From the NCBI GenBank assembly GCA_963989385.1, contig OZ022512.1, forward strand, positions 28,169,899 through 28,233,898: a stretch of 64,000 nt of DNA, written 5' to 3'. Of this stretch, positions 34,576-57,498 are shown one piece after another. Source of the DNA: Ctena decussata (lineage: Eukaryota; Mollusca; Bivalvia; Lucinida; Lucinidae). The stretch's first letter is position 1. The number at the start of each line of letters is the position of its first letter. The notes under the pieces were generated by a model. The model had not been told where the DNA came from. It saw nothing but the letters and a program-made list of their open reading frames with translations, and made no database searches. Made by a program: the position numbers and the translations under genes.

Positions 34576-34679
34576 ATTTAATTTATCAGACTGTCAAAAT
34601 AAGTGCCATACGACAACAGTCTGGATGTGAACCTGCTCTGACTGTTCAGTTTTTCATGTTGTTAAAGCCGCCATTCAAT

Positions 34680-35934: not shown

Positions 35935-36086
35935 ATGGGTCTAAACATATAAAAATCGATTTCTCAGAATATTTCCGCTGATCTCTGAGGACCAAAAGAA
36001 AAAAAAATATAAACTGCACTATGGACGATGTACGGGGCTGCTTTTTAGGGCTGCCACACAGCACAACACCAGCTGCAGTGACTACA

Positions 36087-36314
36087 AATAAAATATAAAA
36101 GTTAGTTCCTTAAAGAGCAGAGAAAATATTCAAAAGGAGAGTATGGGCCAGACTGTACAGTTTCGAATACTAAATTCTCTTCAGTGACCCTGAATGAACT
36201 GGCAATGAAAGCCAGAGAAAAGATACTGTAATTTCGAGTTTCAACAAGGCAGCCTATATAAAGACTGATGTCAATCTGAATGGGGTCCAAATATTGCAAA
36301 CCTGTTTAGAATAC
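36087..36314 (+). repeat. 228-bp direct repeat, copy 2
   Basis: See copy 1. The 152 bp between the copies is unique and includes CACACAGCACAACACCAGC. A young segmental or target-type duplication. Confidence 0.95.
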
Positions 36315-36800
36315 TGATTGAGAAAACAATGATACTGATAAAACTGATTGAGAAAACAATGTTGATTCAGACCAGACCAGAGTCTTCAATGTTTGTCAAC
36401 CGTGATATAAAGCATGTTCTTATCAGATAAATGGACTTTCCTAGCTCGAAGATTGAGACGCCCATTATAAACATAGTTAAAGCGTTCTATTCTCTATGCA
36501 AACTACATTCTTTTCAAAGGTGCACTGAACCCTACATTTCTTAAAGCATGTGAGAGCAAAGGGTTCTTAGTTCTGCCTCTTAGCTTCCAAAATCATAAAC
36601 ATGACTATAAAATGGTAAAAATACAATGTACAGGCTTTGTTACACTGTCATTGTGCTGCTTCTGTTTAAATGCATAGGTAACCAGAAACTAAAACTCTGT
36701 TTTGTAGAGCAATTTGTCATTTTTAAAGCATCTTCCGCGATTGTTTGCCAATTAAATGACTCAGCTCATATAAATCATCCCACACTTCATTATCAAACGT

Positions 36801-37003
36801 GGAGCCCCTGTAGTTCAGTAGGCTTAGCGCTGGCCTGCTAATCTAAAGGTTCAATGTTCAAGCCCGGCTGGAGGCGGGAGTCTTTGCAATTGCAAACGGG
36901 GTTTCATTGCATTCAGCCATACATTATCACCCACCAATCGTCCTGATATGACTGAAATACTGTTAAAAGGGACGTAAAATCGCAAGTCATCCATCCATCA
37001 CTG
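36801..37003 (+). mobile_element. tRNA-derived SINE, second copy
   Basis: An A-box-like TAGTTCAGTAGG and a diverged B box are followed by the same body as 8551-8765 (TGATATGACTGAAA) and a short ATCC tail. Confidence 0.8.
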
Positions 37004-37080
37004 AACATGACGGTGGAACCACATTTCATAATGATTTGTGTTTAGAGATTTACCACTGGCGGGACATACGAAGCATTAAG

Positions 37081-37632
37081 TCTGTAACATACAAAATTGA
37101 CATTTTTCAGACTTTTACACAATTTTCTGCATTCAAGGGCAAATAACTTATTTTCAGAACATTTACGGAAAAATGCTAATAATTCTATAATGTCCAGTTA
37201 TTGACAAATACTTGCATCAAAGGAATGGCAATTTTATTGCTTGGTGGAGAAACGTTGTGGTTTTCCGCAAAGTTGGTAGGTGCAAAATATACAAAAATCT
37301 AAAAATTGCAAATAAAGTGATATGTTTTAGCATAGATATGTAGTAGACACAGATACCGTATGGCATTTTAAAGTGTGTCTACTGATTATTTATTATATGC
37401 GGCAACCTTTAGTCAATCTGTTTTTGGAAGACTGTAAATTACCAATTAGTTTCATAAGGGTCGACTGCCATGGAATTACCCCACTCACATTTAATAGATA
37501 GTGTACACAAAACCAAAGCTCCATTCGACTTAAGACTTTTATGGATGAATTACCCCTACATAACGCTAATTGTTCACAAAATATTATTCAATTATAATTG
37601 TACCAGGAAAACCCCCTTATGGCAACTGGTCC
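37081..37632 (-). repeat. Right arm of the inverted repeat, ~120 bp before the TIR exon
   Basis: Mirror of 34680-35226, ending CCCCCTTATGGCAACTGGTC. The loop between the arms is about 1.85 kb and holds a 228-bp duplication and a SINE. No TA or other target duplication is obvious at the outer ends. Confidence 0.85.
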
Positions 37633-37748
37633 TTTATCAAAAGCTTTTGTAGTCAGAGATGGGTTGATTTGAACTTACACCATCTTACTCTCTGATGCAT
37701 GCTATGGAAAGTTTATACGGCTAGTAATAAATTGAGTTTTCTTTGCAG

Positions 37749-37795
37749 GTATACTTGGAATTCGGAATAACATTTAAAATACCAGAATCAAAAAT
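37749..37795 (+). other. 5' UTR part of the TIR exon, preceded by a 3' splice site
   Basis: A pyrimidine-rich tract ending in TTTTCTTTGCAG (AG at 37747-37748) precedes the start codon by 47 bp. The ATG exon therefore looks like the second exon of the transcript, with a non-coding first exon and the promoter further upstream. I could not locate that first exon. The 47 bp contains an in-frame TAA at 37775-37777. Confidence 0.55.
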
Positions 37796-38384
37796 ATGGC
37801 AGCTTGCGTCGATGAGGAAATACAGCTACTATCTGCCTACGAGACTAGTATTGAGGAAACAGAGCCTGACGAATGCCTTTATAACACCGATAAGACCGAT
37901 GAGATAAGCATTGATATGGATAATAGTGAAAGATCAGAATTGCCAAATTGCATAACACTAGCAGAACTCACTGGGGACAAAAAATATCATCTATTTATTT
38001 CTTCTGCCTCTGACGATAGAGACATTGTCTTACAAGTTGTCGAAGAACTAGAGAGAAAGTATGGTGTCAAATGCCTGTTCCATGACCGAGATTTCCAACC
38101 TGGAACTGCAGTTCTGCAAAATATCAAGGAAGGAATTAGCTCGTCATTGAAAACTGTTGTATTTCTTACTCCAAATTTTATGGAAAGTCGCTTTTGTACA
38201 CTAGAATTAGAAATTGCAATAAATAATCCAACACCTTCCGGATTCAGTAGTTTGATTCCAGTTTTATACCAGGACTGCAATGTTCCATTTCACTTAGAGC
38301 CAAGGACGTATATAGATGCCACACTACCGGAAATGACAATATCGAAGTTAGCTTTGAAAATCAAAACGGCTCTAGATCGATCAG
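37796..38384 (+). CDS. TIR gene coding exon 1 (acidic N-terminus plus TIR domain)
   Basis: This exon encodes residues 1-196 and ends at a CAG|GTTGGT donor. Residues 1-50 are acidic and Ser/Thr-rich. The TIR fold starts with KKYHLFISSASDDRD and runs to the end of the exon. Motifs visible are FHDRDFQPG, then KTVVFLTPNFMESRFC, then ELEIAI. The strand-E-like stretch SSLIPVLYQD (151-160) replaces the usual PI.L motif. The reading frame stays open past the donor to 38647, but that tail runs into a dispersed repeat and is not needed. Confidence 0.85.
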
Positions 38385-41300
38385 GTTGGTTGCTACTCCT
38401 TATTTTCTTAGCTGACCTGGCCCGAAGGGCCATAGTGAGCTATTGTCGCACCAAAGCGTCAGGCTTCACCATGTGTCGTGCATCGTTCGTTGTCCGTCTG
38501 TCACCGATTGACGGGTTCAATCTACTGGGCGGTATGCACAGACTGGGCGGTATGCACAAAGACGATGTATGTCAACTACTGTTGATTTATACCCTCAAAC
38601 TAATGACATCATCATATTGTGCAACTGCAGCAAATCTATATTTATAATACACACAGCATATATTTTATCTCGGTTTGAAACATTAAGTTAGCTGAATGGT
38701 CCGCATGAAGGTTTCCTAACTCATCAATGAATCATCACCGGAAACAAACAAATCACGGATAAGGCCTATGATGACACAGAAATGAGGACTCAACGGAAAG
38801 AACGTATTGCGACACCAGGAGACCCCTGGGAAGTCAGACAACACCACTGAAACTCCGGAGCAAAAGAAAACTATCAGTTGAACTCCGAATAACCAAGCAA
38901 CAGACAAGGCAACCTCTGGACCCAACCAACTATATTAAGTAGCTTTATGTCGGGCCCATCATTGAGTCTGATGCCCGACCAACCGGCGTGCAATTAAAGA
39001 GGGAAGCAAAGTTTTTAACCATGATTGGGTTAACCACTAAACATGCAGACTGTAGCATTACATTTATATTATATCCAATATGTTTGTAACGAACGTTAAT
39101 TTTCTTGAAATAGCCTAATGACTTTAAACAAAACCAAAAGTATCAAACAAGCTAATCATAACTTACAATTTGGTACTCAGATAGGTAAAATTAGTTACGT
39201 TTATTTCAAAACAGCTCCTGAGATAAAATATTGGCAATGCTTTAAGGTGAATGGATATTGTGTGACGTGAAATAATTATTAATATCTTAGTCTCCATGTC
39301 TAATGGGGTAACCTTATAATTTTTAAATCATCATCAAAATGACATTTAATTCAAATCAATGATGATTCACTAACTTCGACTCCTTGTTTTGGTAGTCAAA
39401 AAGGTAATGTATACAGCAATCAACAATAAACGAGTTGTCAGATTATCCTTTTACTGTTTAGAAGCTTTCATATCAATGCTAGAGTAACAAAGTGCAGAAA
39501 GCAACCGCCCTTAGGTAAAACACAAATGTGAAAGGAAACATTACACCTAACAGCAGTATCGCCATACATCACTGAAGAGACTCAAATACTTGATACATCT
39601 ATTTAATTGTTTCAGATAGTCATAGTTCCAAAAAAGGGCAAAGACAGTAGCATGATTGCCCACTAAGTTACTATATAATGCATATTTTATATCAGTATTA
39701 TGCCTGTTAAAGCTGTTTACTTAAAGGCGGTAACCCGAGCATTAATATGAAACTTGTTCACAGTAAAGGGGTTCGTTCCAAGAACTGAGGAACTTTTATT
39801 GCTTCAACTTACTGCATCATATCAAAGAGATGATATAATGAAAATCATCATTCTTATCTGACAGATCGTTAACCTTTGAATGTTGTATGTGTTACCATTT
39901 TGAATACCAAACAAGGAGTCAAAGTAAATGAATTATCATGGACTCAATTAAAAGGTTATTCTGATATTATGGTGGCTGGTTTGTGCCATTTCGTCTTTTC
40001 GTCTTGTCGCCGCGAAAAGACGCCAGGCGAAAAGACGAAAAGACGCCATGCGAAAAGACGAAAAGACGAAAAAACGCCAGGCGAAAAGACGAAAAGACGA
40101 AATAACGCCAGGCGAAAAGACGAAAAGACGAAACCCGCCACGCGAAAAGACGAAATTTCAGTGCGAAAAGACGAAAAAACGCCATGCGAAAAGACGCCAT
40201 TTAAAACTCTTAAATTGTCGTCTTTTCGCGTGGCGTCTTTTCGTCTTTTCGTCTTTTCGCCTGGCGTCTTTTCGTCTTTTCGTCTTTTCGCATGGCGTTA
40301 TTTCGTCTTTTCGCATGGCGTCTTTTCGTCTTTTCGCGTGGCGTTATTTTGTCTTTTCGTCTTTTCGCGTGGCGTTATTTCGTCTTTTCGTCTTTTCGCG
40401 TGGCGTTATTTCGTCTTTTCGTCTTTTCGCATGGCGTCTTGTCGTCTTTTCGCATCACATGTTTTGCATTAAGATGAATCAGTATATCCTATTTTAAATG
40501 GAGTTAATACTTTGAATACTTAGACAGGTGTTTCTTTTTTAAACTGTGTAGACCCTGATCAGAATGCAATCTGTAAAGAAGTGTACTAAACACGGTTTGC
40601 AGTTTTTGCCGCTAAACTGTTCTTTTAAAAACATTACCAAAAATATGAGGAAAGAAGTCATTATGGTATTTCTACTGAACGGACAGAAAAGAATATGAGC
40701 CGTCCTGATGTTTTGGAGTAAAATACTCCAAACAATTTTCATCCTATCTTAATGTTGATCTTAAACTGCCTAAAAGATTAACAACTTGTTGACCATGTAA
40801 TCTCTCTCAAACTATGGAAGACGAAGGTGTCTATACAAACATTGAAACATTGTTGTACTTCGCTGCAAGTGTTATGATATGAAAAAATAATGATACGGTA
40901 TTTTCTCTAATTTGACATACATTTAACTGCAGCTAACCAAAAATTTGAAGTTTATAGTTTTCTAAAGACGTGCCAATCGCAGACAGAGCAGAGCCTGATT
41001 AGACTTCTCTTTGGCTTACGCATGTGTGTCCCAATATTTAAAGCTGCAAAGTCTGTAACTTTTGATCTTTAATTTTTAGAATTAATGTTTCTAATTTTCA
41101 AGAATTCAGTAATATAGCTAAAATTTGGGTATACATTTTGCCAGATCCGTAAACCTTAACAAATTATCACTATTAAAACAACAGCATTTATGTTTTGTCT
41201 AGAATTTCTAGAGGGATGTAAATAAATACCAACAAGAGAAAAACACATGTTTTTATAAAAATTATTCACTTTTCCATGCAGTTTTCAGCTGTAGTGAACA

Positions 41301-44300
41301 GATTTATTGTGACTGCATAACTTAAATCTACTTTTACAAATGATTTAAAAAGAAAACAAAACATTTCATAGTTGTAGGGAATCTCCTTTATAGATATTTA
41401 GCCTTAGCAACCGCATAGCAACGACTTCAGTGGCTTTATGAATACGGCCCCAGGTGTACTTCTGTGGATGATATAACCCTTCCAAAAAGTGTGTACTCTT
41501 AAAGGAAACACTTTTTTCCTACAGCAGCCAACTTTCCTTTTAGAGTTTATCCCCATTAAGAAGAAAGGTCAAAGTAAAATAAGCAGAATTATTTCACGTT
41601 AAAGGGTGTCCAGTCACCTTAAAGTCTTAGACTGTTTATTTAGATAATGAAGGAAGATTTCCTGAAAGTAAGGAATGGATCACGCAAAAAAAAAAGAAAG
41701 AAATTAAGAACTGAAGAAAAATGACCTCGGTTTAACTTAGTTTAAATGTTCAGGAATGTAATACTGCAACATTGCCATTGCATCTAGCAGCAGCTTCAGC
41801 CTTTTTATGCCCCTAACTTCGAAGAAGTTGAGGGGGCATATTGCTTCAGGGTTGTCCGTTCGTCTGCCCGTCCGTATTTCTGTCCGTGCGTTCGTTCGTC
41901 ACGCAGACCATATCCTAGGAACAGTGCATGCTAGAGTTTTGAAAGTTCATATATGGATTTATCATAAAAAAGCTGACCCGTAATTTTTTTCTTGCTCGAA
42001 TTGTCTCCTTTTTTCGAGTTATGCCCCTTGCAAAATCATAATGAAACCTTGTCAGCAAGATATCCAAAAAAGTATTTTAGCTACGGCGTTGAGAATTTGC
42101 CAGCTTATGAGAAATGATAGGTAGATGAACTGATCAACTTTTGAACAAAATCTGTCAATTTTTGTAGGAGAAATGGCCCTTTGAAAATTTTGGCATTTTG
42201 ACTTTGTCAGCAAGATATCTGAAAAAGTATTAAAGGTAGGAACTCGAAACTTTGTCAGCTGAATAGGTAAGTGATTTACTTTTGATCAAAATCCGTTAAT
42301 TTTTGTAAGAGTTATGGCCCTTTGAAAATTTCTACATTTTGACTTTATCAGCAAGATACATCAAAAGGTAATTTACCTAGCGCCTTGACACTTTGCTATC
42401 TTATTAGGAATGATGTGTAGATTATATTATCTTTTGGACAAAATCCGTCAAGTTTTGTAGGAGTTTTGGCCCTTTGAAATTTCGGCATTTTAACTTGTCA
42501 GCAGGATATCACAGAAAGTATTAAAGCGAGAGACTTGATGGTCTGCTTTTGCTCCAGTGTGCCAGTGCTGTTGCTGACGCCCCACGGATCTCCAGGTGTC
42601 TCAAAGTGTTTTGGCTGTCGAGTCCTCATCCTTGCTTCATCACGGTCTTTGCTTGATTTTAATTGTTGATCGTGATGACTCTCTGATGAGTTAGGGGACC
42701 TCCATACGAACCGAACTACCAACTAATTGTGTGCACAGCGGCGGAGGATGAGGGTGAAGGTTTGGGCCCAGTAAAACCGGTTTAAACCCCACAGTAGTTA
42801 TTACTGACCGTCCCAAGGCGGTACTTTCGTTGCGGTTGCATTTGTTTTATGTTCAGTGGTGTTTAATTTATTGTGTTCTCATTTGAACTCTTTTATAATA
42901 AAAATAGAAAATAGGTAAAAATAGTTGTTAAATGTTTTTCGTATAATTTGCTTAGTCTGTTGTAACCCTTCTGTTGGTCTAAATTATTTAGTTCAATAAA
43001 GATAGCTGAGTTGCCACCTATTTGGGAAAGAGCTGCTGACTCGGCTTATCACTTGTAATTTATTGTTTGTTGGGATGTCTTTGTCAATCTTTCCCTTTGA
43101 AGTTGGGGATAGGGTTTGGGATCTGATTCAGTCAGTTCCTGAAGTGTAGTTACTCTTTAAATTTGAAACTTTGTCAGCTGGTTGGTGTTGAGTAAATTAA
43201 TTGGTTATCTTTTGAACAAAATCTGTCAATTGTTGTAAGATTAATTGCCTTTGAAAATTTTGGCGTTGGAACTTTGTCAGCAGGATATCTCCAAAAGTAT
43301 TTAAGCGAGGGACTTGAATCTTTTTTTGGCTGATTAAAGTTGATAAGTAGATTAATTGATTAACTTTTGAGCAAAATCCATCAATTTTTGTACGAGTTCT
43401 GGCCGTTTAAAAATTCCGCATTTCAACTTTGCCAGCAAGATATATCAAAAATGTATTTGAGCGTGGACTTAACTTGGTCACCTGATTTGAGATTAAACAT
43501 ATTTTATTGTATAAACACAATGGGATTGGACACAAGTTCTAACAACATTGTACAGTCCTCTCACTACAGTTACAACATATAATATCATGGTACAACAGTG
43601 AATATGTAACATTTGCTTTAAGAAAAAAAACATGTGATAAGAAGACGAAACCATGTAATAAGAACCTGATTGAAGATGATAAGTAGATTGACTGATCAAC
43701 TTTTGAACTAATTCCGTCAATTTGTTTTAGTACAGATCATTCCCTTTTAGGGTCAGGCATATGGTTGGGGCATAGTGTTTTACAAACACATTTCTCTCGT
43801 TCAAACTGACTCGGAATGAGTCCAGATGATCCAAAATGACCAGAAATGCATAATTTCCATCAAAATGAAGTACAAGGAAGCATTTCACGGAAGCCACATG
43901 ACAATTTACACTAGGTGCGGTAGTATAAAATAATTCTTTTTAACCTGTGATATAAGTTACGGTGTCATGAGGTGCATCTTATGGATTCGTTCCGCTAAGC
44001 CTTCTGGGGCACATCATTATGAGAGTTGGACAAAAATGGACTTTATCTCCATAATCGTAGGGCATGATATACAATATATGGTTATTATGCAGTGATTTTT
44101 TTTCTAAGATTTTGGGAAGCTTCCTGTTCGTTTATAATTGAGAAAAAAAAATCAGATATTTTTCTTTATTTTACGGAAAAATTCACAAAACTTGGAAAAT
44201 GAAGGCTATTTTTGGATTGGAAATGACCCCCATACATGGGGATAAAGCTTGCCAAATAAAATCACTGGGTTATGGAAAGTATTTATGACATTTGTTCTCG

Positions 44301-47300
44301 GAGAGGGAAACTTATTTGAATCTGTAGAAAATTAGATTATAATGACCTACTTTTTCATTCATAAAATGAGATACGGGAAAAGAGCGTATCAACATGAAAG
44401 CTTCTTCGTTTAATTTTAATTAACCAACCCCTACAGATAGGGTATGTGGAAGAGTGATGCTTCCAGCTTAGTCTACTCGTGAATTATATCATGCGGCTAA
44501 CTATGGTGCAAGGCGGGCTATGTTTTCAGTCCAAGATGTATTTTAAGGCAAATATCAGTAAGTAACAAATATTTACTTAGTTTAAACATTGTCGATTGAT
44601 AAATGGAGAATAATGACGTCGACAGATACTGCAATTTTTGCTGACATTAAGTGGAATTTCTGGAATTTACATCCTAAAACTTGAAACAAAAGTCTATTAA
44701 AACCACGACATGCAAATATTTTAGCATAAGGAAATACTTTGACCAAAAAAAAAACACCCCATCATATTCACTTAAATATGTCAGTGATACTTAGCCTGTC
44801 CTGAAAAAATGCGACCAGTTTAACTGGACACAAGAACTTCTGTGCTACGGTATTGAGAGGATATGGCCACGGAATCATACTGGAATCAATACAATCAGAT
44901 ACAATAATCTGTATAATACAATTTCATATGTTGCCAGTCTGTAGGGGTTTATATTGGTTAACGAAACAAATTCAGATGAAAAAAATTCAGCGCGGTCAGT
45001 GCATACATCTAATCACTCTAGACTTGTCCACTGTAGTTCACAATGGCCTACTACGGTTATATTAAGTGCATACCGCAAAGTTCAAGACACGTTGGCCCTC
45101 GGTTTTTCCCAGGGCCACCAGCCAACAAAATTGTCAGTGGATGATGCATCTGACCACTTAAAATTCCGACTGAAAGGATTTGGTATGATAAGGCCCATAT
45201 TTGGCCCCCAGAAAATTCATTTGTCAAAACTTCTATTTCGATAATAAAATTTATTATACAGGAAAGTTCCAATCTAGAATGAAACAGCAAACACAAAATC
45301 AACCAATTCTTGCACAAAATATTTGCATTTTTATCTTGAATGTACCCATACCCCAGCCGATTTGGACCAGAATGACGAATTTTGGGGCTCTCAAAGTATA
45401 TGCGCTTGGCCTCCAGCACATTATATATTTTTTATACAAACAAAATTTTGATATATTAATATGCCATGAAAATATTACACGGGCTGAAAACTGGGCTGTG
45501 TATTTATTTTTAACTAATTGTTACCAAACTGGCAGCTTTTCAACATTTTTCTGATTTTTCTTTAAACGCCCATATCTCCGCTTATTGACAAAACAAGCAC
45601 ATTTTGTAGCTATTCTATTTTCTTGTTACAAGGAATAATTTAGTACACGTTTTATTTTGACCTGTTGTAATTTTTTGGTAAGCGTCTCTGGACTTGTAAA
45701 CTTGAGTAGGTGGGGTACCGGGTCTTCGGCAACGCTGAAATTATTCATATTTTTATTAAATGCAAACGGAAACATCTAAAGGAAGCTAAGCAATTGCACG
45801 TTATATTAGCAGGCAATATTATACTTTTATTTTTTTTACACAATATTCAAAAAATAATAGATAAACGTCCCATAACCAAAATTTAAAACTTTAAATATCC
45901 CGTATCCCAAAACAGCCTAGACATGTGTCGGCTTTTAATGGGAGTAGTCACTTTCTAATTTTTGCAGTTCCTTTTCGGTGCTCTTTCAACTATTCTGAGA
46001 TTAAAAGTAAAATGTTACTTTGGATATACTAGGAAAATCTCAATATTTTTCTAATGTTTTATATCTGATAGCTCCCCTAGTTGGCCAAAGTTAGGAATTT
46101 GCGCCCCAGCTTCCTTGAAATAATAGCTAATTTATGCTCCCCAGCTGAATGAAAAAAAAAATCTTTTTCCTCGGTTCTCGGAGTACCTGAGAGAGCCTCA
46201 TCTCTGGCATTTTATGTTCCTTTCGAAATAAGAAACACGAAAAAGATTGGTTATGCAGGTCCGCAGCATGAATCGCTTTTGCTGGACTCCCAATGAGTTT
46301 CTGTTGCAACTACTCGTACTGTGACTCTGCATATTGAATACTGTCTAATTTGGGATGAATAGGACTTATGATTTTGGCCCGGAATGAGGAAGGTGTTCAC
46401 CCTCATTATTGGAAAATATGAAATTTTAGTAGAAGTGCGTCTTTAAAGATAGTTTTTGCCATGCCTGTACATGTAAATATATTAATCAGACTGGTTGTCA
46501 CAAACACAACTGTTAAATAGACCCAGAATTCTCCAAATAGTTGCGTTAAAATTTCATTATATCATTTGACCTATATTGGGAGCTCAAAGTATCTGACAAA
46601 CAGACGGACAGATACATTTACACCAGAAGATTCCTTCAAGACGTTTATTTGTCTCTGATCTATATCATTGCATAGCATCATCCTTTTTTATTCTAACGAA
46701 TGTGCATATTGCTCCGATTACTTGATTATTATCAGAGAACCCGAAGTTTAAAAATATAAAAGAAAATAGAAAATGCGCTAATTATTTCAGGAGCTCCTTA
46801 ACTCTTTAAGCACCAAAAAGCAGACGACAAAATTTACGTCTGCAAAATTAAAAAAATACCTAGTCCAAGACATTTCATATTGAGAATTCAAAGACTAGAG
46901 GGCAAACAGTGTAAATCTAAATGAGGCGGCTCATGATGAGCCGTCTCATCAGGATCTACGCTGTTTGCAAAGGACCTCTTACTATTGTAATGTAAATTTG
47001 CCTATAAAAATAGGGAAAAATGAACTTTCGGTATACTTCAAAATTTTTATTGAAATGTGTGGCTCTGAACTCGATATAATTGGCACATAAATAATTTTTC
47101 AATTATATCGCACACAGAATAAGATTTTTGGAGTAAAACGCAAGTTTTTACAATTAAATGTATGGAAAATAAGAAAAAGTTTTATAAGATGCTTTCCCCC
47201 CCCCCCCCCGTGCCTCAGCAAGCCACTTTGCATGCATATGTGTACTATCAATATACACATTATATATGAGTGGCAAGCTGAGGGGGGGGGGGGAAGATAG

Positions 47301-50300
47301 TCTATAGCTGAAAAACTGAAAAGTGGGTGGGGTAATTAGGCCCTCTGTATCTAAAAATAAGGCTAGCATTCTTTTTATTTACATAAAGTGGCATACTATA
47401 CGCAGCTGTAGTATTTTGCTTCATTTTAAGCATATTTAACAAATGAAATTCAGTGAATAAGAAAAAGCGAAAAAAATATGTATTTAGGATGACCAAAAAT
47501 TTCACTCACCCCTCTAGCGAGAATCGGTGAGAGTTAGTGCACATATGTAATAATTGTTCAAAATCAATATCAAAACCTCTTTATAATAGATCAGTCTTCC
47601 CATTAATGCTAAAATTTTTATTTTTGGCTTCCCAAGAAAGCTGCAGTAATTTGTCGAAAAATAGGCAAATTTGCACTGAAACTGTCAGAGGTCCTTTTGC
47701 TTATTTCGTAACTGGGGCTTAAAGAGTGAAGGCATTCCACATAAGAGAAACAATTCCTACTTTTTGCAGTTTTCAGGAATACACTTTGTTCAAATCCGGC
47801 AAATTCAGATTCTGCAGAACTTTCAGCAGAAAGGGCTTAAAGAGCAAAGGCATTCCACATAAGAAAAACGATTCCTACTTTTTGCAGTTTTCAGGAACAC
47901 ACTTTGTCCAAATCCGGCAAATTCAGATTCTGCAGAACTTTCAGCATGAAAAAGTGTTCATAAGCAGTTGTAATTGTTACTTTAGTCGGATCCTGCTGTG
48001 ATATAGCGATCAAACTTTTAGATATTAACAGTTTTACAAGCTGTATAAGAAAATTTTGTTTTCCTACCCTACCAGAGGCTAGTCATCTAGCAAGTCATAA
48101 CCATAACAAATTTACAAGATCCTTGGGCGTAGGAGCTTTGGCGAGGCTGTGACATATAGTATTTGCTTTCTCTCACTTTTGCAGACAGGAATGGAACATC
48201 TGTCAGCATTGTTGCAGACATCAAACGGCGTTGCCTATGTAGGCCGAACCAATATAAATTCCACTTGACACACACTATACTACGATCGCTGAAAGACCGT
48301 AAAATAGACGTAAGTTACTCTTCGTGTCATGTTTTAGCCACGTGCAAATGTCTGTCCGTCCATCTGGCGTGTCTTAAAACTGTATAATCAGCTCCTCATT
48401 CAGTTTTCAAACAATTAATTTGCACAGATTTCAAATGAACCGCTTCATTGAATTTATCGCCGTGTCTAATGTTGTCTTTAATTAGATCACCAATATCCAT
48501 TATTAACTCATTACTTTATTTATTTTTATCCAACAGGCTTTGCCAAGGCAACTGCAGCAGGTGATTACACTTCTAAACAATGATCTTATGGCAAAAGATG
48601 ACATCAAGAGCAGATGCAGCACAATATGTAGATGGTCATGTGGCGTATGCCCTCTTGGATTCTTTCTTTGCTTTGTACTTTATCTGATATTGGTTTTTTG
48701 CATCACGACAAGACGACCATCAGTAGAAACTGCGAACTTGATGTCAAACTCGCAGTGGGTGACATATACTCCCGTGTTGTTATCTCTGGTCATTGTACCA
48801 GCTCTTTATTGGATCAGAAAGCGAAGAGAAAAACAGGTAATGCTAGCCTTGTTCACCCCATGCATCCAAATGTATAATCTGTACGATCAAGATACAATCG
48901 ACAACTGTAACCAAGAAAAGTTGCTAACTGACAGGGAAGGAAGATTGATTTTGAAGCAGCTTGTACGAAGCTAAGCTAGGAAAGACGATTTCGCGAAGCA
49001 AAGAAGTGCTTATAACCTACCGTTCGTGTGCGTGCGCGTCCGCATGCGCGTATGCGTATGCGTGCGCAATTGTGTGCGTCAGCAAAAATATAAACCTGTT
49101 GCGTTTAGCTCAGTTCATAAGTAATCGAACTTGCTCCATCGGTACATCTGGGAAAGATCCGCTGAATGCAATTATACATATTAGACCATGCCCTATATTT
49201 CACGGATCATTGAACAAAGAAAGCATATTCACCTATTGCGTTTAGCTCAGGTTCTAAGTTCTAAATAGAATAGAGTCTTCAAACTTGCTACATAGGAACA
49301 TCTGGGGAAGATCTACTGTATACAGTGATGCATCTCGGACCATGAAAAATGTTTTATGGATCATTGAACATAGAAAAAGTACTCAACTGTTGCATTTAGC
49401 TCAGCTTCTAAGTAAGCAAAAGGGATAGAGTCTTCAAACTTACTACACATGTAGATCTGGAAAAGATTTTTTGGAATGCAGTGATGCATATTGGACAGTG
49501 ACCTATATTTCATGAATCATTGAAAATGGAAAATATTTTGATTCACCTGTTGCTTTTAGCTTAGTTTCTAAGTAACCAAAATGGATACAGTCTTCAAACT
49601 TACTGCATAAGAACATTTAGCAAAGATCTACTGAATGCAGTAATGCATATTAGGCCATGACCTATATTTCATGGATCATCAAACATAAAATTATTTACCT
49701 GTTGCTTCTAGGTAAAATCTACTGAAAGCAGAGATGCATATCGGGCCATGACTTATATTTCATGAATCATTGAACAAAGAAAATTTTGATTTACCTGTTG
49801 CGTTCAGCGCAGTTTCTAAGTAATCAAAATGGAAACAGCCTTCAAACTCTTCAAACATCATGGGAAGATCTACTAAATGCAATGATAAGTATCTGGCCAT
49901 GACCTATATTTCATGGTCCAGTGATTTTTGCCTTATATGGTGTAGACTATTTGATTTATGAACATGATAGCTTGAGATAATAAGTCAGTATTACCCGATG
50001 TATGGCCTTTAAATAAAACTGTGAGCTTTATTTCATGGTCCAGTGATTTTGCCTTTTATCTTGAAGGCTGTTTAATGTATTATCTTAATATCTTTGGATG
50101 GGAAGTCAGTAATGCCCGACTTTTGAAATCATAATAAAAGTAGGACACAGTAACCTGTATTTCATGGTCTAGTGAATTTGCCTTATATGTTAAAGACTTT
50201 CTGATGTATGAACATGAAAGCTTGGGATAAGTAGTCAGTATGGCCCGATGTTTTACCACAGAATAAAAATAGGAATACATAGCCTTCCATATTCATGGTT

Positions 50301-53300
50301 CAGTGATTTTTCATTCTACCATGATGACTATTTAATGTATAAATATCATAGCTTGGGATAATATAATAGTTTTGCCCCATGTTTGATCTCAAAATGAAAG
50401 TAGGTCACAACAACCTGTATTTCATTGTCCGATAATTTTGCCATAAACTTTTACCACTTTCTGAAATGCACACTAATAAGAAAACCCTGATTTTTTCAAA
50501 GAAAACCCTGGTTTTGCGATTTGATACACCAGGTTTTTAAAAATATAGCCACATTAATTCCTGGAAAGGATATTTGCCACTTAAAATTAGTAGCCGCATA
50601 ATGTTTTTAGCCACATAACGTTTAGCCACCTAAATGGTCATTCATGGGTACGTCCGTCCGTCTGTCAGTCCGTGCCCACTATTTCCAATTGATAACGAGT
50701 ATTTATTCACGGATTTTTTTTCTTCTAATTTTGCATACATATCGTTATCGGCGATGAGTGGTATGGGATTGTTAACGGGCAAAATAGGTCCTTTTTAACA
50801 GAGTTACTGCCCTTGTTCGCATGTTCGAATGGTTTCTTGCCTGTAACTCCCTTACTGTTTATGATATCTGAATGAAATATAAAAGATATGTTGAACATCA
50901 AAGGTGACATATTCAATCTAAGGGCCGTAACTCTTACCTTTCCAGTTCGTGAGTTATCCGCCCTTGATAGGCCTGAAAATGGTTTTCGTCCTGCAGTTCC
51001 TTTACTATAAGAAATATCTGAATGATACTCCACACATATGTTGAATATCTATGGTTACAAAATTGTGACACAGAACCGTCACCCTTACATTTCCAGTTCG
51101 TGACTTATCTGCCCTTGATTGATATGAAAAACGGTTTTGACCAGTTGTTCCTTTACTGTATGAACTTTCTAAATGAAAGTCCACAGATATGATGAACATC
51201 AAAGGTCACATATTGTGACTTAGGACCGTCACTCTTACCTTTCGAGTTCGTAAGTTATCTGCCCTTGATAGGTCTGAAAAAATGTTTTAATGACCCGTAG
51301 TTCCTGTAGTATATGGAACATCTAAATGAAACTTCACAGATATGTTAAAAGTAAAAAGTATGCAAAGACCAGGAACTGAAACAATCCAAATCCAAATCCA
51401 GCCCTCAAACCATAGTTGGAAACAACTAAGATTACAAATAATCAAGATACAGAGAACAGGCCAACCGAGTGAGCAGCTTGTTCCCAAAAGGTGGCCACTC
51501 AGCAACCCAAACCGAACCAAAAATAATAATAACATACATAAGGTAAAACATCACAGAAACTCTGACACCAAAAACAGGCAACAAAGAACCACAACAGAAC
51601 TACCGCCTTGGAACGGTCAGTAATGAATTACTGGGGGGCTTAAATCGATTTTACAGGCCCAACCTCACTCTCAGTTTCTGAAGTGGTACAAAACATTTAG
51701 TTGGTTGTTCGGTTCGCATGATAACTACATATTGTGACTAAGAACTGTCACTCTGACCTTCCAGTTCGTGAGTTATCCACCCTTGACAGGTCTGAAAAAT
51801 GGTTTTTGACCTGTAGTCCCTTTACTTTGAGGAATATCTGAATGAAACTTCACAGATACGTTGAACATCAAAGGTTACATATTGTATCTAAGAACCATCA
51901 CTCTAGCATTTCCAGTTCATGAGATTTCTGCCCTTGATTGATCTGAAAATGGTTTTTGACCTGTCGTTCCTTTACTATATGGAATATCTGAATTAAACTT
52001 TAAAGGTATGTTGAACATTGAAGGTTACATATTGTGACTAAGGGCGGTCACTCTTACCTTTCCAGTTCATTAGTTATTTGCCCTTGATAAATCTGAAAAA
52101 TGGTTTATGACCTGTTGTTCCTTCTCTATATAGAATATCTAAATGATTCTTCACAGATATGTTTAACATCAAAGCTTACATATTTTGAATAAGGACGGTC
52201 ACTCTGACCTTTCCAGTTAATGAGTTATTTACCTTTGATAGTTCCTCTACTACATGGAATATCTGAATGAAACTGCACAGATATTAATGTCTACTTTGCA
52301 GTACAGACATCATTTAGTTATTCTATATTTCACAAAATAAGTTACGATGTCCAGCGGTCGCGGGGTATCATGTATTGTCTTTGGTGCTTTTATCTATCAA
52401 GGTCTGACGCCGAATACCGCCGCCGGCGTCCATCTTAAATCCCGCATTTTTTTTTCAAAATAATTAGGTTACAGTACTCCCTTATCACGGTCAGTTTAAC
52501 CCTGTTGTTTCAATAATATCCACATACACTTTCTTCTTCTCACTCACATCCGATTCCTTTGAAAGCCCCGACCCACACCGATTGCTGTTTTTATGCCCCT
52601 GTGACGACACTCAGCTGAGGGGGGAGAGGGAGGAGAAGGGGCGCAGTTTGTTTTACCCCTGTTCGTCTGTCCTTCCGTCGCACCTAAAAAGTTTTTGAAT
52701 CAACACGTCTTACAGTTTTTGAGCAATGAATTTGAGCGTTGCACATGCAGATGTTACAGACATACTGGAGCTGTGCAAGTGCCTTTCTAGAGAAAAAACT
52801 TTTAAGAAAACAAAATATACGGCCTCATCAAACTTCGAAATTCTGAGGATTATGGCTAACACAGGATCAACTCCTCCTACATGGTTTAAGCAACGACTTT
52901 GAAACTTTCTAAAGACGTTACTGATAAACTGAAAATGACCCTGTTGTTTCTTAGGAGAAAAAAAAATCATTTTAAACCAAAATTACGGCTCTTTCAAACT
53001 TTGAGATTTAAAGGTTCTGCCTAATATAGAATGGCAAGTTTGTATACCGAGCCGAAATTATAACGCAACAGAGCATTACATGCCACCTTTACTCCATTAA
53101 ACAATACGATTTTGTCTGTCTGTCTGTCAAATAAATATTATTTCATTTATTCATATTCATTTCTAAACATTTTGGCATTTTCAGCTTTTTGCCCTTTGAG
53201 AAATTTTGAAATCTATTAATACATGGGGTGTTGAAATTTTCCACGCCTAAGTCAGTACTCTGTATGGTCACCTCAGAAATAGATAGATAACAGCATTATA

Positions 53301-56300
53301 TCTGCGCGGCATCGAGCGGATATAATGTTTGATTAATGGTAAGGGATGATTGTTCCATTCTTGGCCTAGTGCCTTTTCCAAAAGAGCGAATCTGAGGGGG
53401 TTAGGGCAACGTCTAGCGCGTCTGTACAACTCGTCCCAAATATGTTCACTTGAGGACCGATCATATGAGAGTGAAGGCCACTGCATTATATCATTCTTTT
53501 CTGTCAGTAACTGGGATTTAAAACAAGCAGTGTGGGGGCGGGCTTTGTCTTGCTGGAATACGTTATGCCGTTAGCGCTGGTTGATCGGGAGCAAGAATAT
53601 TGTCACGGTACCTTTGAACATTCAGATTCCCTCTTATGACAACAATGTTTTTCCATTGTGCGAAATACCGCCCCACACCATCACTGACCCACGTCAGAAT
53701 CGATCAACCCCCATCACACACGGGTTTGAATATCTTTCATCCCGGCGACGATTAACTCTCGTGCGCCAATCAGCTTTTCGGAGAGTAAACCGAGTTTAAT
53801 CGGAGAATAAAACCTGTTGCCATTGCCATGCTAACCAACGGTGGGGAAGGTTACACCACTGCTGTCGGGCATAACGATGGCGTGGTGTCAAGACTGGGCC
53901 TACATAAAAGCGCCTTGGCCTGATGCCGCGTTCACGTAGCCGCTCGAAAACCGTTCATGAACTGATAGGGCGGTACGTGTACAGAAATTTCATTAAAATC
54001 AACAGAAGAATAAAAAGAAAAAACAATTTACCAGTCTGTTGAAACATGTCCCACAATTCAATCACGGTAGACCGGTCAATGGAAGAGGCGAAAAACAGCC
54101 AGTTGCGAGCGTCCTGCCTGCAATATGCCACCAACAACTCGTCCACGACCTTGCAGGCTCAGTCTTGGCATCACTTACGGCTGCAACAAAGAAACTGACT
54201 GGAGTTTATAAGCCGATTGTCTAAGAACACATTGATGTTGTTTGCTTTAACGTTGTACACGTATACCGCATGCTTTTCACCTAAAACCTAATTCTATACA
54301 AGTGTATGGTTTTGCAACGATGCTTAATATGAAGTGACTAAACAAACTTTGGTCTCATAGACATAGGGCTACTTTCGAAAACTTTGCCATTTTTTTTTCG
54401 AAGGAGCTAGGAGTTACGAAAAAAACTATCAGTTTCGTGTTGCCTTATAAGTTTAGTTCTGTATATAATCAACCCTTCCCATAGTTTTTAAGCCTGAAAT
54501 TTCGCACAGATATTTAAGATATACTGTACAGATGCATGCGCCTTTTTAATCAGGGAAAGGAAACTCTTTTGACAACAACGGCCTTCTTAAACATAGACAG
54601 TATTCTGGTTATGGCTAATACAGGATGACAGATCAGTATAATCAACTATTTCAAGTTTCAAGGCGATTAGATTAAAACGTTGTGCAGACATCTTGAAGAT
54701 AAGCATATATCTTTTTGAAGAGCAAATTATTATATTTGATAAAACAACGATTGATTAAACAGTTGCATGGAATCCATTAGCACGGATAAATCTTTGGAAC
54801 TGGGGAAAGAAGTGATTACATTTTTGTGACCTTGAACTCATTTTGAAGGTCACACCTGACTTTGAAACTCATATTTTGATAGAAAAGGCTTGTGCGCACA
54901 CTATCTTGACTCAATGGCTGGAATTTTACCAAAGTAGCACAGATACAGCATTAGGCCATGGGAATGAAATGGTTAGATTTTGGCATTGACTTCATTTTCA
55001 AAGTCATTAGATAATAAAAACTGAGCTTTGTGTGCCCTCTATCTCATGTAACAATTGATGGAATTTGACCAAACTAGCACAGATATTTTATTGTGATCGG
55101 TAAAAAAAGTAGTTAGAGTTTGGTGACCTTGACCTTATTTTCAAGGTCACAAAATTATAAAGACTCTAAAAGTGAGCCTTATGTGCACACTATCTCATTA
55201 ATTAATAGATGGAATTTGACCAAACTAGCATAGATGAATTATTGGAACTGGGAAAAGAAGTGATTACATTTTAGTGACCTTGACCTCATTTTGAAGGTCA
55301 CACCTGCACTTTGAAATTCAAATCGTAATAGGAAAAAGCTTATGCACACACTATATCGTGAGTCAATTGCTGGAATTTTCCCAAACTAGCATAGATACAG
55401 CATTAGGACACGGAAAAGAAGTGATCAGATTTTGCTGACCTTGACTCATTTTCAAGTTCGCTACAATATACTCGAAAAAAATATGAAAGGGTCAAACTTT
55501 TACCCCGCGATTTCTGGAACATTTCAAACGTTTGGCAAAATAAATCATTTCCACCTTCCATTTCATTCATTTTACAAGTTTTGTACACATGAAGTTTGAA
55601 AATATAGCCTGTATCTTGACCAAGTCCAGACTGCAATTCACACTACCCTCAAAATCAGAGTTGTTTGAAGTCCATTGGGACCAAATTCACCAAAATTTTC
55701 GATTTCGCCAATTCATGGATTTTTTGAAAAATTGCTCAAGAGTCATCACGTTTAATCATTTTTAAGGTCAGCAAGCTATAAGAAGTTTGAAACTCATAGC
55801 AATTTTAGAGGTTATTCCCGACCAAACTGACACACTATCAATTCTCTATGGGAATTCAAACAACTTTCATTTAAGGGGTAGTTTGACTTAAAGCTTGACC
55901 TTGGTCAAGACAAATGCTATAGGATCAAGCTTCATGTGTATAAAACTTGTAAAATGAATAAACTGGAAGGTAGAAATGATTTATTTTACCAAGTGTTTGA
56001 AATGTTCCAGAAATCTTAGGGTAAAAGTTTGACTCTTCAATATTTTTTTTGAGTATGTAAAGACTCCCAAAATAAGCCTTGCGTGCACTCTATCTCATGA
56101 ATTAACAAAAAGCATTGATCAAATTAGCACAGATACACCATTGTGATCGCGGAAGCAGTGATAAGATTTTGGTGACCTTGATCTCATTTTTTAAGTGACA
56201 CTGGCACTTTGAAACTCATTTTTATAGAAAAAAAATCTTGTTTTAAATGTTGTTTTTCAATATCTCATAAAGGCAGTAATGGAACTACATGAAATTTTGC

Positions 56301-57498
56301 AGGAAGATAGACACCTGTGGTTTTGTTTGTTTTTAACTTACTATCCCTTTGATGAAATTATATTGGATTTTTTTACAGACTGGTGGTGGGGGGGTGGTGG
56401 GTGGGGTGGGGGGTTTTGAAATGAACAAGACCTGATTAACTTTTAAGCAAATTCCGTCAAAAATGGATGGCTGATTTATACCCCTTGTTTGAATTAAGCA
56501 TTTTCCAATATCGAAATAGCTTGACCTTGAAGCGTAATAAATAGTTGTGGATGTATTAAATATTTTAGTTAAGGTAAGGTAAGGGATTTCTGCGTTCATT
56601 AATGACAGAGTTAGAGTCACAATTAACGCACCGTCTTGGCTCAGGATCCATAGGGTAAATGAGTTTGAAATTTAATTTGTGAAAACTTAAAAACATACTT
56701 TTATTGAATTGAGTACGACAGACGCCCGTTTCTATATTTAACTTCTTAGGTCTTGTTTGGCAACGAACATCCCTCTGTGAGTCACACTTCCTGACGTGTA
56801 GTGCGATACACTGCAGCTGCAGACGCCAAAGTATTATCTCGCCAGCGCAGGCGTCCCCAGGCCATGAGCAGTCCTGTATTTTGTTCTTCATCAACTTTCC
56901 CCTTTTCGAGAAACCTAACGCCTCCCTTGCACAAACTGTGTTATAGCGCCGTTTTATTAAGTATGGAAAGGCGTTTCGAATCTGTCCGACAGACAATAGC
57001 GTTTTTTTTTGCTCCTGCAGATTAACCAAGCATCATTCGAAGGACAGAGACACACGACATGATGAGAAAACGGAACAATAGCATTTTACTACGCAGTCTT
57101 TTTTGGGTTTATTAGATTATGAAAAATATATGCCATGAAAACCATGTTTTCAGAAGTAATGAATGGAGTTTACAACTATTTTAATCTCTGACAGCTGATA
57201 AAGTCTCTTGAATGAATATGATGATTTATATTTACAGGCTTCAATCAAGCTAAAAGAAAAACTATGGTATGAAGTGACATCGAGGACGTATCATAATGGT
57301 TTGACATTCTCGTATTGTGACACTTTCGATTGGCCACCCATGGTATACTTTCATTCAATTAGAAATTGTTTTTTGCCGTTTTTCACCGTTCTTACAATAA
57401 CGGTGATAAAGTGGCTGAATATTGCCACAACAGACGCACTTAGTCTAACAAAGAATACCGAAGAAACGACAAGCCTACCAGAATGCATCGTCACCTAA
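37796..57498 (+). CDS. TIR-domain multi-pass membrane protein, spliced gene (4 coding exons)
   Basis: Reconstructed coding sequence join(37796..38384,48185..48309,48537..48836,57238..57498), predicted 424 residues. Seen: GT/AG at each junction and an uninterrupted frame. Exon 1 leaves one base over, which completes an Asp codon with exon 2; the other junctions are phase 0. The TIR domain covers about residues 64-195. Box 1 is YHLFISSASDD (64-74), the BB-loop box is RDFQPG (98-103), and FCTLELEIA (133-141) carries a Glu (137) three residues after Cys134. That spacing matches the catalytic Glu of NADase-type plant TIRs, but Toll-receptor TIRs share it. A basic linker follows (197-238), then hydrophobic segments at about 273-294, 312-331 and 381-398. 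There is no signal peptide or LRR. Inference: an intracellular TIR anchored in a membrane, acting in immune or death signalling. An in-frame TAA seven codons upstream supports the start. Exons 1-3 are firmer than exon 4. Confidence 0.72.
38400..38680 (+). repeat. Dispersed repeat fragment at the start of intron 1
   Basis: It starts with a small hairpin, TGGCCCGAAGGGCCA, and contains GTCCGTCTGTC and a doubled CTGGGCGGTATGCACA. This explains why the exon 1 frame stays open past its donor without being coding. Confidence 0.5.
38690..39115 (-). pseudogene. Penelope-like element C-terminus and 3' UTR in intron 1
   Basis: On the minus strand the frame 39115-38945 is open for about 57 codons (KINVRYKHIGYNINVMLQSA, then CLVVNPIMVKNFASLFNC and GRASDSMMGPT, stop 38945-38947). 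A 3' UTR follows to about 38690. It equals the C-terminus of the element at 10157 and is better preserved. 5'-truncated. Confidence 0.82.
39116..39988. other. Intron 1, unassigned
   Basis: AT-rich intron sequence with no exon or repeat recognised. Confidence 0.35.
39989..40454. repeat. Long hairpin of GAAAAGACG / CGTCTTTTC units
   Basis: The left arm (about 40009-40202) is built of GAAAAGACG words separated by CCAGGC, CCATGC or CCACGC. The right arm (about 40217-40454) is built of the reverse complement, CGTCTTTTC with GCGTGGCGT or GCATGGCGT. The loop TTTAAAACTCTTAAA is itself palindromic. Open frames of up to 198 codons run through it in several phases as a by-product of the repeat. Confidence 0.92.
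40455..41805. other. Intron 1, unassigned
   Basis: AT-rich. No exon, RNA gene or clear repeat seen. Confidence 0.35.
41806..43460 (+). repeat. Dispersed repeat with ~145-bp units and TATGCCCC hairpin end
   Basis: It begins with TATGCCCCTAACTTCGAAGA and TTGAGGGGGCATA, then a CCGTCCGT tract. Units share GCCCTTTGAAAATTT, GTCAGCAAGATAT and CTTTTGAACAAAATC near 42174, 42314, 42468, 43247 and 43402. The third unit is split by the insertion at 42541-43163. Confidence 0.75.
42541..43163 (+). mobile_element. Penelope-like terminal fragment in a tandem array
   Basis: Matches 19174-19728 inverted. Its left 180 bp match the 3' UTR of the element at 38690 (shared GAGTCCTCAT, GTCTC, TTGCTCC blocks). It then runs through CTGATGAGTTAGGGGACC into terminal sequence (GGCCCAGTAAAACCGGTTTA, CTGACCGTCCCAAGGCGGTA). 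A 3' end followed by a terminal copy. Confidence 0.72.
43500..46900. other. Intron 1, unassigned
   Basis: Several open frames (for example 45057-45419 minus, 45201-45554 plus) overlap each other and have no recognised motif. Possibly old dispersed repeats. Confidence 0.3.
46911..46969. mobile_element. Short palindromic MITE-like repeat, copy 1
   Basis: GGCAAACAGTGTAAATCTA at the left pairs with the right end (AGATCTACGCTGTTTGC), around a central GAGGCGGCTCATGATGAGCC then GTCTC. A diverged copy is at 61870-61938. Confidence 0.72.
47196..47293. other. 98-bp hairpin with a poly-C arm and a poly-G arm
   Basis: C14 (47196-47209) pairs with G12 (47282-47293). Inside, CTCAGCAAGCCACT pairs with AGTGGCAAGCTGAG and ATATGTGTA with TATACACAT. 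Confidence 0.85.
47714..47951 (+). repeat. 119-bp tandem duplication before exon 2
   Basis: GGGCTTAAAGAG begins the units at 47714 and 47833. They are nearly identical through GGCATTCCACATAAGA, TACTTTTTGCAGTTTTCAGG and CTGCAGAACTTTCAGCA. Each copy carries a pyrimidine tract with TTTTTGCAG, an acceptor-like sequence, upstream of exon 2 at 48185. Confidence 0.9.
48185..48309 (+). CDS. TIR gene coding exon 2 (basic linker)
   Basis: The acceptor is TCTCACTTTTGCAG and the donor GAC|GTAAGTT, a near-consensus site. The 125-nt exon completes the split Asp codon and encodes residues 197-238. It is basic and Cys-containing (motifs such as KRRCLCRP and LRSLKDRKID). No domain is recognised. It probably links the TIR to the membrane region. 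Intron 1 before it is 9800 bp and intron 2 after it only 227 bp. Confidence 0.72.
48537..48836 (+). CDS. TIR gene coding exon 3 (two membrane segments)
   Basis: The acceptor is TTATCCAACAG and the donor AAACAG|GTAATG. The exon is exactly 100 codons, phase 0 at both ends. An amphipathic stretch (RQLQQVITLLNNDL) is followed by a Cys-rich turn, a strong hydrophobic segment from GFFLCFVLYLILVFCI, a short polar loop and a second segment (PVLLSLVIVPALYWI) closed by basic RKRREK. The basic flank suggests a cytosolic side. Reading through the donor gives 46 more residues before a stop at 48972-48974. A retained-intron isoform ending there is an alternative to exon 4. Confidence 0.72.
49080..50465 (+). 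repeat. Second copy of the composite two-part array (intron 3)
   Basis: TTGCGTTTAGCTCAG units (49080-49870) are followed by CAGTGATTTTGCC units (49910-50460), in the same order and orientation as at 3800-7620. Confidence 0.78.
50790..52290 (+). repeat. 150-bp tandem array split by a Penelope-like fragment
   Basis: GCCCTTGATAGGTCTGAAAA anchors fall near 50812, 50960, 51110, 51260, then 51780, 51929 and 52079, a step of 148-151 bp. Units also hold TTCCAGTTCGTGAGTTAT and ATCTGAATGAAACTTCACAG. Confidence 0.85.
51347..51725 (-). mobile_element. Penelope-like terminal fragment inserted in the 150-bp array
   Basis: Near-identical to 12637-12954 and 33955-34270, here extended by TTAGTTGGTTGTTCGGTTCG. 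The array unit is cut at GATATGTT and resumes at CTACATATTGTG. It shows a 3-bp deletion relative to the other two copies. Confidence 0.8.
52291..53230. other. Intron 3, dispersed repeat start and unassigned sequence
   Basis: TATGCCCCTGTGACGACACT followed by a G-rich stretch (52592-52642) looks like another TATGCCCC-family end. The rest is unassigned. Confidence 0.4.
53268..54171 (-). pseudogene. Tc1-type transposase pseudogene in intron 3
   Basis: On the minus strand, across frames: RGRVVGGILQAGRSQLAVFR and STVIELWDMFQQTG (N-terminal helix-turn-helix), VLFSD then a stop (first catalytic Asp), FQQDKARPHTA (second Asp; the usual Asn is Lys), and SSSEHIWDELYRR (Glu). It ends IRSMPRRYNAVI. Part of the domain between the DNA-binding and catalytic regions is replaced by AT-rich sequence. 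Element ends were not found. Confidence 0.85.
54780..56225 (+). repeat. Degenerate 130-160-bp array rich in AGGTCA half-sites
   Basis: The GGAATTTGACCAAACTAGCA phrase falls near 54930, 55060, 55211 and 55372, and again near 56110. Most units carry GTGACCTTGACCT then TTTTCAAGGTCAC. Split by the MITE at 55471-56053. Confidence 0.75.
55471..56053. mobile_element. TA-flanked MITE with ~165-bp inverted arms
   Basis: The left arm CTCGAAAAAAATAT, GTCAAACTTTTACCC, ATTTCTGGAACATTTCAAAC and on to CTTGACCAAG is mirrored by the right arm ending ATATTTTTTTTGAG. TA lies at 55469-55470 and 56054-56055. No coding capacity. The array continues on both sides. Confidence 0.88.
56381..56413 (+). repeat. GGT/GGGG tract with quadruplex potential
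   Basis: Repeated G runs separated by single T. Confidence 0.75.
56414..57237. other. End of intron 3, unassigned
   Basis: A 154-codon open frame on the minus strand (57029-56565) is the longest frame here free of recognised repeats. It has several Cys pairs (RRCVNCDSN) but no recognised domain. 56740-57020 is richer in GC than its surroundings. Confidence 0.3.
57238..57498 (+). CDS. TIR gene candidate last exon 4
   Basis: The acceptor is GATTTATATTTACAG, joined phase 0 to exon 3 across an 8401-bp intron. It encodes 86 residues and then TAA. The first part is polar and aromatic (KLWYEVTSRTYHNG, YCDTFDWPPMVYF). A hydrophobic segment CFLPFFTVLTITVIKWL follows, then a short Thr-rich tail. Composition looks coding and the frame fits, but no homology is recognised, so this exon rests on splice logic only. 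I saw no AATAAA soon after the stop. Confidence 0.5.
   Translation, partial: ASIKLKEKLWYEVTSRTYHNGLTFSYCDTFDWPPMVYFHSIRNCFLPFFTVLTITVIKWLNIATTDALSLTKNTEETTSLPECIVT

Follow-up and report, generated by a model that had tools for sequence, protein, structure and literature searches.

In a 64,000-nucleotide window from Ctena decussata (contig OZ022512.1, forward strand; C15:28169899-28233898 in the genome searched here, with positions below counted from the first letter of the window), we found what appears to be a genuine animal gene of four exons for a TIR protein, belonging to a small family with three fully open copies and one decayed copy in this genome. Its exons lie on the plus strand at 37796-38384, 48185-48309, 48537-48836 and 57238-57498. 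With AG/GT at their borders and phases of 1/0/0, they form one continuous frame for a 424-residue product in which a TIR domain is followed by a basic linker, membrane segments and a short tail. With modest confidence we read its sequence as that of a probable membrane-anchored TIR scaffold or adaptor, its TIR carried on a two-helix hairpin, and not that of a receptor or an enzyme. The parts of the gene are as follows.

37749..37795, plus strand: 5' untranslated part of coding exon 1, with its acceptor at 37748/37749 and an in-frame stop at 37775-37777
37796..38384, plus strand: exon 1, with the ATG, an acidic N-terminal region and the TIR; codons 1-196 and a single base of codon 197
37994..38323, plus strand: TIR core, Pfam TIR_2, residues 67-176, E = 2.4e-20
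38087..38104, plus strand: BB loop or Box 2, RDFQPG, residues 98-103, read from the sequence
38204..38206, plus strand: Glu137, at the position of the catalytic Glu in TIRs that cleave nicotinamide adenine dinucleotide (NAD); TLR-like TIRs have a Glu there too
48185..48309, plus strand: exon 2, basic linker (D-NG-S--I-A---R-C----YKF-L); its counterpart in gene C is 43% identical over 42/42 residues, with equal phase and length
48537..48836, plus strand: exon 3, a helical stretch with two membrane helices; homologous exon in gene C (genome-wide E = 1.7e-5), weaker in gene B
48648..48704, plus strand: membrane helix 1, residues 276-294, mean hydropathy 2.73
48759..48815, plus strand: membrane helix 2, residues 313-331, mean hydropathy 1.78, with a strongly basic stretch behind it
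57238..57498, plus strand: exon 4, C-terminal tail and stop codon; homologous exon in gene C (genome-wide E = 2.3e-4), weaker in gene B
57256..57303, plus strand: tail motif EKLWYEVTSRTYHNGL, residues 345-360, conserved as EKLWREVTSRTYKNGL in C and EKLWRQATMTTYRDCI in B
57367..57423, plus strand: third hydrophobic segment, residues 382-400, seen in the window copy but not in B and C, which are too short to reach it

The strongest evidence that the joined layout is real comes from two paralogs, genes B and C. A search of the genome (1.66 Gb, 245 contigs) with exon 1 returned two close relatives, on C11 and at C15:14603879 (E = 5e-39 and 6e-39), with the next match at 2.7e-13. When exons 3 and 4 were used as queries, the genome-wide search led to C11:80254872-80255153 and C11:80256650, respectively, both downstream of the C11 TIR exon and on the same strand. 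The exons of the two genes are:

C15 14603879-14604455, 14613875-14613996, 14620671-14620964 and 14622960-14623079: gene B, phases as in the window gene
C11 80205844-80206381, 80210896-80211020, 80254863-80255153 and 80256638-80256781: gene C, phases as in the window gene

Both paralogs have all four exons in the order, strand and phase of the window gene, and the second intron of gene C spans 43.8 kb. When the three proteins were aligned, every aligned residue fell in the same exon in each comparison (364/364, 368/368 and 351/351). Exons 3 and 4 of gene B are weak when taken alone (local-search E = 1.2 and 0.047) and rest on their place, their phase and their alignment with C. Since the four exons recur in two paralogs, the layout is a family trait and not a chance chain of open reading frames. 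A preliminary description of this DNA had proposed four exons joined in frame into TIR, linker and hydrophobic segments, with the TIR ahead of the membrane segments and no receptor ectodomain; the splice borders and the paralogs bear out the first of these points, and the second was seen in all three genes. Third codon positions were less conserved than second positions in 12/12 exon comparisons and less than first positions in 11/12 (the exception, 0.33 against 0.32, being exon 3 of the window gene and B), which is weak support in that the counts come from a protein-guided alignment that favours this pattern.

A decayed fourth copy, L038, lies on C15 near 62.434 Mb on the minus strand and matches B at 76% over 87 residues, its TIR being broken in two frames. 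P0001, an ENA-derived TIR exon, is 79% identical to exon 1 over the whole length and was the sole match when protein collections were queried with the whole protein, exon 3 and exon 1; scans of a viral contig collection revealed no relative. The sole match in a genome contig collection, L001, falls inside a 770-residue frame that did not appear TIR-like by eye (no family search was made), and was rejected as chance.

The position of the start codon is well supported. As the TAA at 37775-37777 lies between the best upstream acceptor, 37748/37749, and the ATG, in the frame of the TIR, any upstream coding exon spliced at this acceptor is shut off. Only 0.14% of the AGs in the window match or beat the score of this acceptor, and by the same splice weights, which are consensus values, none of the AGs from the stop to 38204 scores above 0; an acceptor inside the TIR, before 38273, scores 4.6. 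The N-terminus is acidic, and exon 1 contains no hydrophobic segment (hydropathy maximum 0.74; no signal-peptide program was used). A Pfam scan of the window protein found no leucine-rich repeat (LRR), in line with the preliminary description, and no Death or STING domain; STING was also absent by Pfam from the exon 3-4 region of all three genes.

The chain of exons was also compared with chance expectation, at thresholds chosen after the exons had been seen. The 25.6 kb behind exon 1 hold six candidate internal exons, and the best compatible downstream chain, of 683 nt, consists of the exons first described. No first-order Markov control reached this length (0/100; maximum 545), and three other stretches of the window gave best chains of 269, 272 and 377 nt, all below it. 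Single exons as long do occur in controls taken from real sequence, where internal ones reach 383 and terminal ones 447, and 29/100 Markov controls hold a terminal exon no shorter than exon 4, so it is only the chain that is unusual. When 50 other open stretches of the window, each of 86 residues or more, were scored, 12 had a hydrophobic segment of at least 1.6, two of them several, and hydrophobic segments alone are therefore weak proof; none of the 50 reached the level of helix 1 (2.7).

These data bear on the possibility that the gene model is an artefact, in which exon 1 would be a TIR-only gene and exons 2-4 chance frames or part of another gene, or exon 3 would read on to 48974. In favour of an artefact, exon 3 stays open beyond its donor and scores poorly by codon use, and P0001 is a 237-residue frame that continues past the exon 1 donor. 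However, the frame past this donor is not shared, as that of B closes two codons on and the tail of C is unrelated, both paralogs have a counterpart of exon 4, and the repetition of the four exons in order, strand and phase mainly refutes this explanation, which we regard as extremely unlikely. Two variants of the model were rejected on similar grounds: a tail-anchored isoform made by reading through exon 1, for which P0001 shares 18/27 residues past the donor, yet B and C do not follow, and exon 3 as the last exon.

The TIR appears to be of the signalling type. Its nearest solved structures were Hydra TRR-2 (E = 2.7e-14) and TLR1 (E = 4e-14), followed by TLR6, TLR2 and TLR10, and then by TIR-STING (8e-7), 7uxr (1.1e-6), which we take to be a bacterial TIR, MyD88 (5.9e-6), Cat1 (9e-6), TIRAP (3.2e-5) and AbTIR (6.9e-5); SARM1 was not among the 59 solved-structure sequences matched at E <= 10. 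An NCBIfam hit, Retron_TIR (E = 1.2e-8), was far under the cut-off and spans the TIR only, and was set aside. The BB loop reads RDFQPG in the window gene and B and RDFLPG in C; a Box 2 loop of the RDxxPG type marks the TLR, IL-1R, TIRAP and MyD88 groups, and SARM1 has E(R/K)LEAG, according to excerpts of PMC7075850. We further aligned 25 TIR rows, 24 from this genome plus P0001. Sixteen of the rows are TLR-like, 13 of them with open frames of at least 642 residues in the locus and three (L036, L040 and L050) short and named by motif only; LRRs were found in the same frame in all three of the TLR-like genes of this genome that were checked. For a TIR tree, 28 loci were considered from among the 150 scored TIR_2 places and 81 exon-1 matches; of these, L002, L004 and L009 were left out for their E above 0.01, and L006, L032, L033 and L034 as belonging to the family itself. 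The family clade had a support of 87/88, under the bar set by the tool and with a long-branch warning.

The preliminary description had noted Glu137 three residues after Cys134, which is where both residues stand in the 424-residue protein, and had pointed out that NAD-cleaving TIRs have their catalytic Glu at this place, though signalling TIRs share the spacing. A membrane-anchored NAD-cleaving enzyme resembling SARM1 would account for the Glu137 position being kept in the three genes, P0001 and the decayed copy, and bacterial TIRs, including the record of the NAD(+) hydrolase AbTIR and a CRISPR-associated TIR, do match at about 1e-5 to 7e-5. However, Glu occupies this position in 25/25 TIR rows, including the 16 TLR-like ones, so it offers no argument for an enzyme, and excerpts of PMC7075850 place it in >70% of TIRs overall and in >90% of the TLR1/2/6/10 subgroup. 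Compared with the SARM1 site, the Glu matches, but the BB loop is of the Box 2 type and the residue four positions earlier differs. In SARM1 a Trp at this position binds ligand (excerpts of PMC7075850); Trp is found in 16/16 TLR-like rows and is replaced by Phe or Tyr in 5/5 family rows (Phe133 in the window gene). Together with the lack of a SARM1 match at E <= 10, in a search in which TLR1 scores 4e-14, this makes the enzyme a very unlikely reading of the sequence.

The membrane part of the protein is encoded in exon 3. Both helices are found there in all three genes, with mean hydropathies (helix 1/helix 2) of 2.73/1.78, 2.34/2.47 and 2.80/2.58 and a spacing of 15-18 residues, and the stretch behind helix 2 carries charges of +8/-2, +6/0 and +4/-1. 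A single-sequence AlphaFold2 model of exon 3 has two long helices, 4-59 and 72-99, at a predicted local distance difference test score (pLDDT) of 68. By the positive-inside rule, which is clear for the window gene, this pattern suggests that the TIR, the N-terminus and the tail are cytosolic and that 15-18 residues lie outside. Of the two or three membrane segments first described, two are common to the three genes; a third conserved helix was rejected, as residues 382-400 have no counterpart in B or C and their mean hydropathy of 1.69 is equalled or exceeded by 10/50 of the other open stretches in the window. The tail contains the conserved motif EKLWrevTsrTY. Since B and C end soon after this motif, the third segment and the extension are private to the window copy, as is its final CIVT, which resembles a prenylation box and is absent from B and C. 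Searches of the exon 3-4 region against Pfam, NCBIfam and solved structures gave no relative at a convincing score. A Pfam match of exon 3 to SUR7 (E = 0.00012-0.00046 for pieces ending at the donor or entering exon 4, and 0.0033 with read-through) was below the cut-off, occurred in one of the three family members and was rejected as a composition effect.

The gene structure, the TIR, the two helices, the conserved tail and the lack of a coded ectodomain are thus plain in the sequence and its paralogs. In the mechanism that we propose, the two-helix hairpin would fix the TIR to a membrane, leaving just 15-18 residues on the outside, while the N-terminus, the TIR and the tail would face the cytosol. 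The protein would work by TIR-TIR contact, as its BB loop and sequence neighbours suggest, and might bring TIR partners (TLRs, MyD88-like proteins or other TIR proteins) together at a single membrane; the conserved tail would possibly serve as a second docking site. In its sequence class, and in part by the charge rule, the protein is compatible with the broad adaptor or scaffold kind, for which one would expect a cytosolic signalling-type TIR without a receptor part. Thus, of the earlier proposal of an organelle- or membrane-anchored enzyme or scaffold, the membrane and scaffold half is retained, while the enzyme half is not and the organelle is without support.

Several results weigh against a scaffold or adaptor of this structure. 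Some splice sites of the paralogs are weak, with no donor above 0 for exon 3 of C and a score of 1.9 at both ends of exon 3 of B. By a codon score trained on exon 1, exon 3 of the window gene came last of the six candidates (-18.4), which we attribute to its hydrophobic make-up and consider outweighed by the paralogs. The topology is predicted from hydropathy and charge. In gene C, whose loop (+4/-2) equals the tail side in basicity, the charge rule is weak, as it is on the N side of gene B, where the stretch before helix 1 is +1/-2. AlphaFold2 confidence is middling for exon 3 (68), and a two-sequence model of the TIR exon had a pLDDT of 39. Towards the end of the TIR, the window gene, B, C and P0001 all lack the FW of Box 3 (helix E); it is present in 15/16 TLR-like rows, the sixteenth ending before Box 3. 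Behind the TLRs, bacterial TIRs score like animal adaptors, so the ranking favours TLR-type TIRs and not adaptors as such. Finally, Death and SAM, the partner domains of adaptors, were not found, and the scaffold role is therefore assigned by analogy.

The same lack of an effector domain recognised by Pfam, together with the Box 2 BB loop, would suit a membrane-anchored decoy that binds the TIRs of TLRs or MyD88-type proteins and dampens signalling for want of a Death domain. The conserved tail motif suggests recruitment, for which a pure decoy would have no need, and we consider a decoy quite unlikely.

Comparison with Hydra raises a further alternative. HyTRR-1 and HyTRR-2, like the window protein, are membrane-bound TIR proteins without LRRs, and their TIR lies behind a single membrane span. 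The extracellular part of these proteins likely has an Ig-like fold (excerpts of PMC6321704), and Hydra has split LRR and TIR receptors, as described in parts of PMC6321704 and PMC8609888. By analogy, the window protein could be the signalling half of a split Toll receptor, pairing in the membrane with LRR-only proteins and supplying the TIR, and the nearest solved TIR is indeed that of Hydra TRR-2. Unlike the single-pass Hydra proteins, however, the window family has its TIR first in all three genes, followed by the two-helix hairpin with almost nothing predicted to lie outside, and we judge a split receptor unlikely.

The scaffold or adaptor that we favour shares features with several known systems. 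The Box 2 BB loop and the Cys-x-x-Glu are those of TLR1/2/6/10-type TIRs, but Toll-like receptors differ from the window gene in its lack of LRRs by Pfam and its in-frame stop upstream of the ATG, and from the family in that its TIR precedes both helices, lacks Box 3 FW and has Phe or Tyr for the Trp before Glu. TIRAP/Mal and TRAM likewise place a TIR at the membrane without a receptor part, and they make contact with it by lipid binding or a lipid anchor, unlike the window family with its integral hairpin and separate conserved tail. TIRAP also has Box 2 and lacks Box 3 (excerpts of PMC7075850). With SARM1 and other NAD-cleaving TIRs the window protein shares the Glu at the catalytic position, but its BB loop, the residue four positions before Glu and its domain partners differ from those of SARM1. 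MyD88 carries a Death domain ahead of its TIR, which Pfam did not find in the window protein. TIR-STING (PDB 6wt6, 'Metazoan TIR-STING fusion'), which we take to be an oyster protein, is also an animal innate-immunity protein with an N-terminal TIR, and the match covers the TIR only; unlike it, the window protein has no STING domain recognised behind the TIR. The ecTIR-DC families of Gerdol et al. 2017 are reportedly invertebrate TIR proteins other than TLRs or MyD88. Oyster and Aplysia have further TIR proteins of unknown role, according to excerpts of PMC4346834 and PMC9334734.

Proteins with a TIR in animals are commonly classed either as receptors, with the TIR behind a membrane span, or as soluble adaptors or enzymes. 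We tentatively propose, with somewhat less than even confidence, that the window family is an undescribed animal TIR class with the TIR before a hairpin and a conserved cytosolic tail, acting as an integral-membrane hub that is neither a ligand sensor nor a soluble adaptor. No animal protein with a TIR first and two helices was found in the available portions of the literature searched (including PMC6836662, PMC5549309 and PMC12521104), a scope outside which Gerdol 2017 and Saco 2023 fall, and the novelty of the layout is provisional. If true, a hairpin-embedded TIR with a separate conserved tail would be an additional design in TLR-type signalling. The tail motif offers a concrete bait for partner fishing, and the three fully open copies in one genome make the family directly testable.

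The genome as a whole has a very large TIR repertoire: of 267 candidate TIR_2 places 150 were scored, so that at least 150 exceed the cut-off. Another short TIR family, distinct from that of the window gene, occupies four places on C8 between 52 and 82 Mb (L003, L005, L007 and L008; open frames of 313-536 residues). Its BB loop is without Box 2 (MDIYQMGGGD in L003 and L005), SANCRRE surrounds the helix C Glu, and in L003 Pfam finds TIR_2 alone. In our reading, if enzymatic TIRs are to be sought in this genome, these genes are the candidates and the window gene is not.

The window also contains several repeats. An interrupted inverted repeat at 34677-37635, with arms of up to 154 nt that are 80-93% complementary, encloses two 228-nt direct copies that are 99% alike and ends about 110 nt upstream of exon 1; it may be a mobile element. 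On the minus strand at 53268-53570, a 100-residue open stretch containing QQDKARPHTA had no match in Pfam, which thus did not confirm our impression that it is a Tc1/mariner transposase remnant. Tandem repeats at 5969-7553 and 49128-50442 have units of 129 and 154-155 nt, with a mutual identity of 68-70% in the five best pieces. An array of 23/31-nt units (CGAAAAGACGCCAGG) extends over 40013-40455, its second half reading, by eye, as the inverse of the first.

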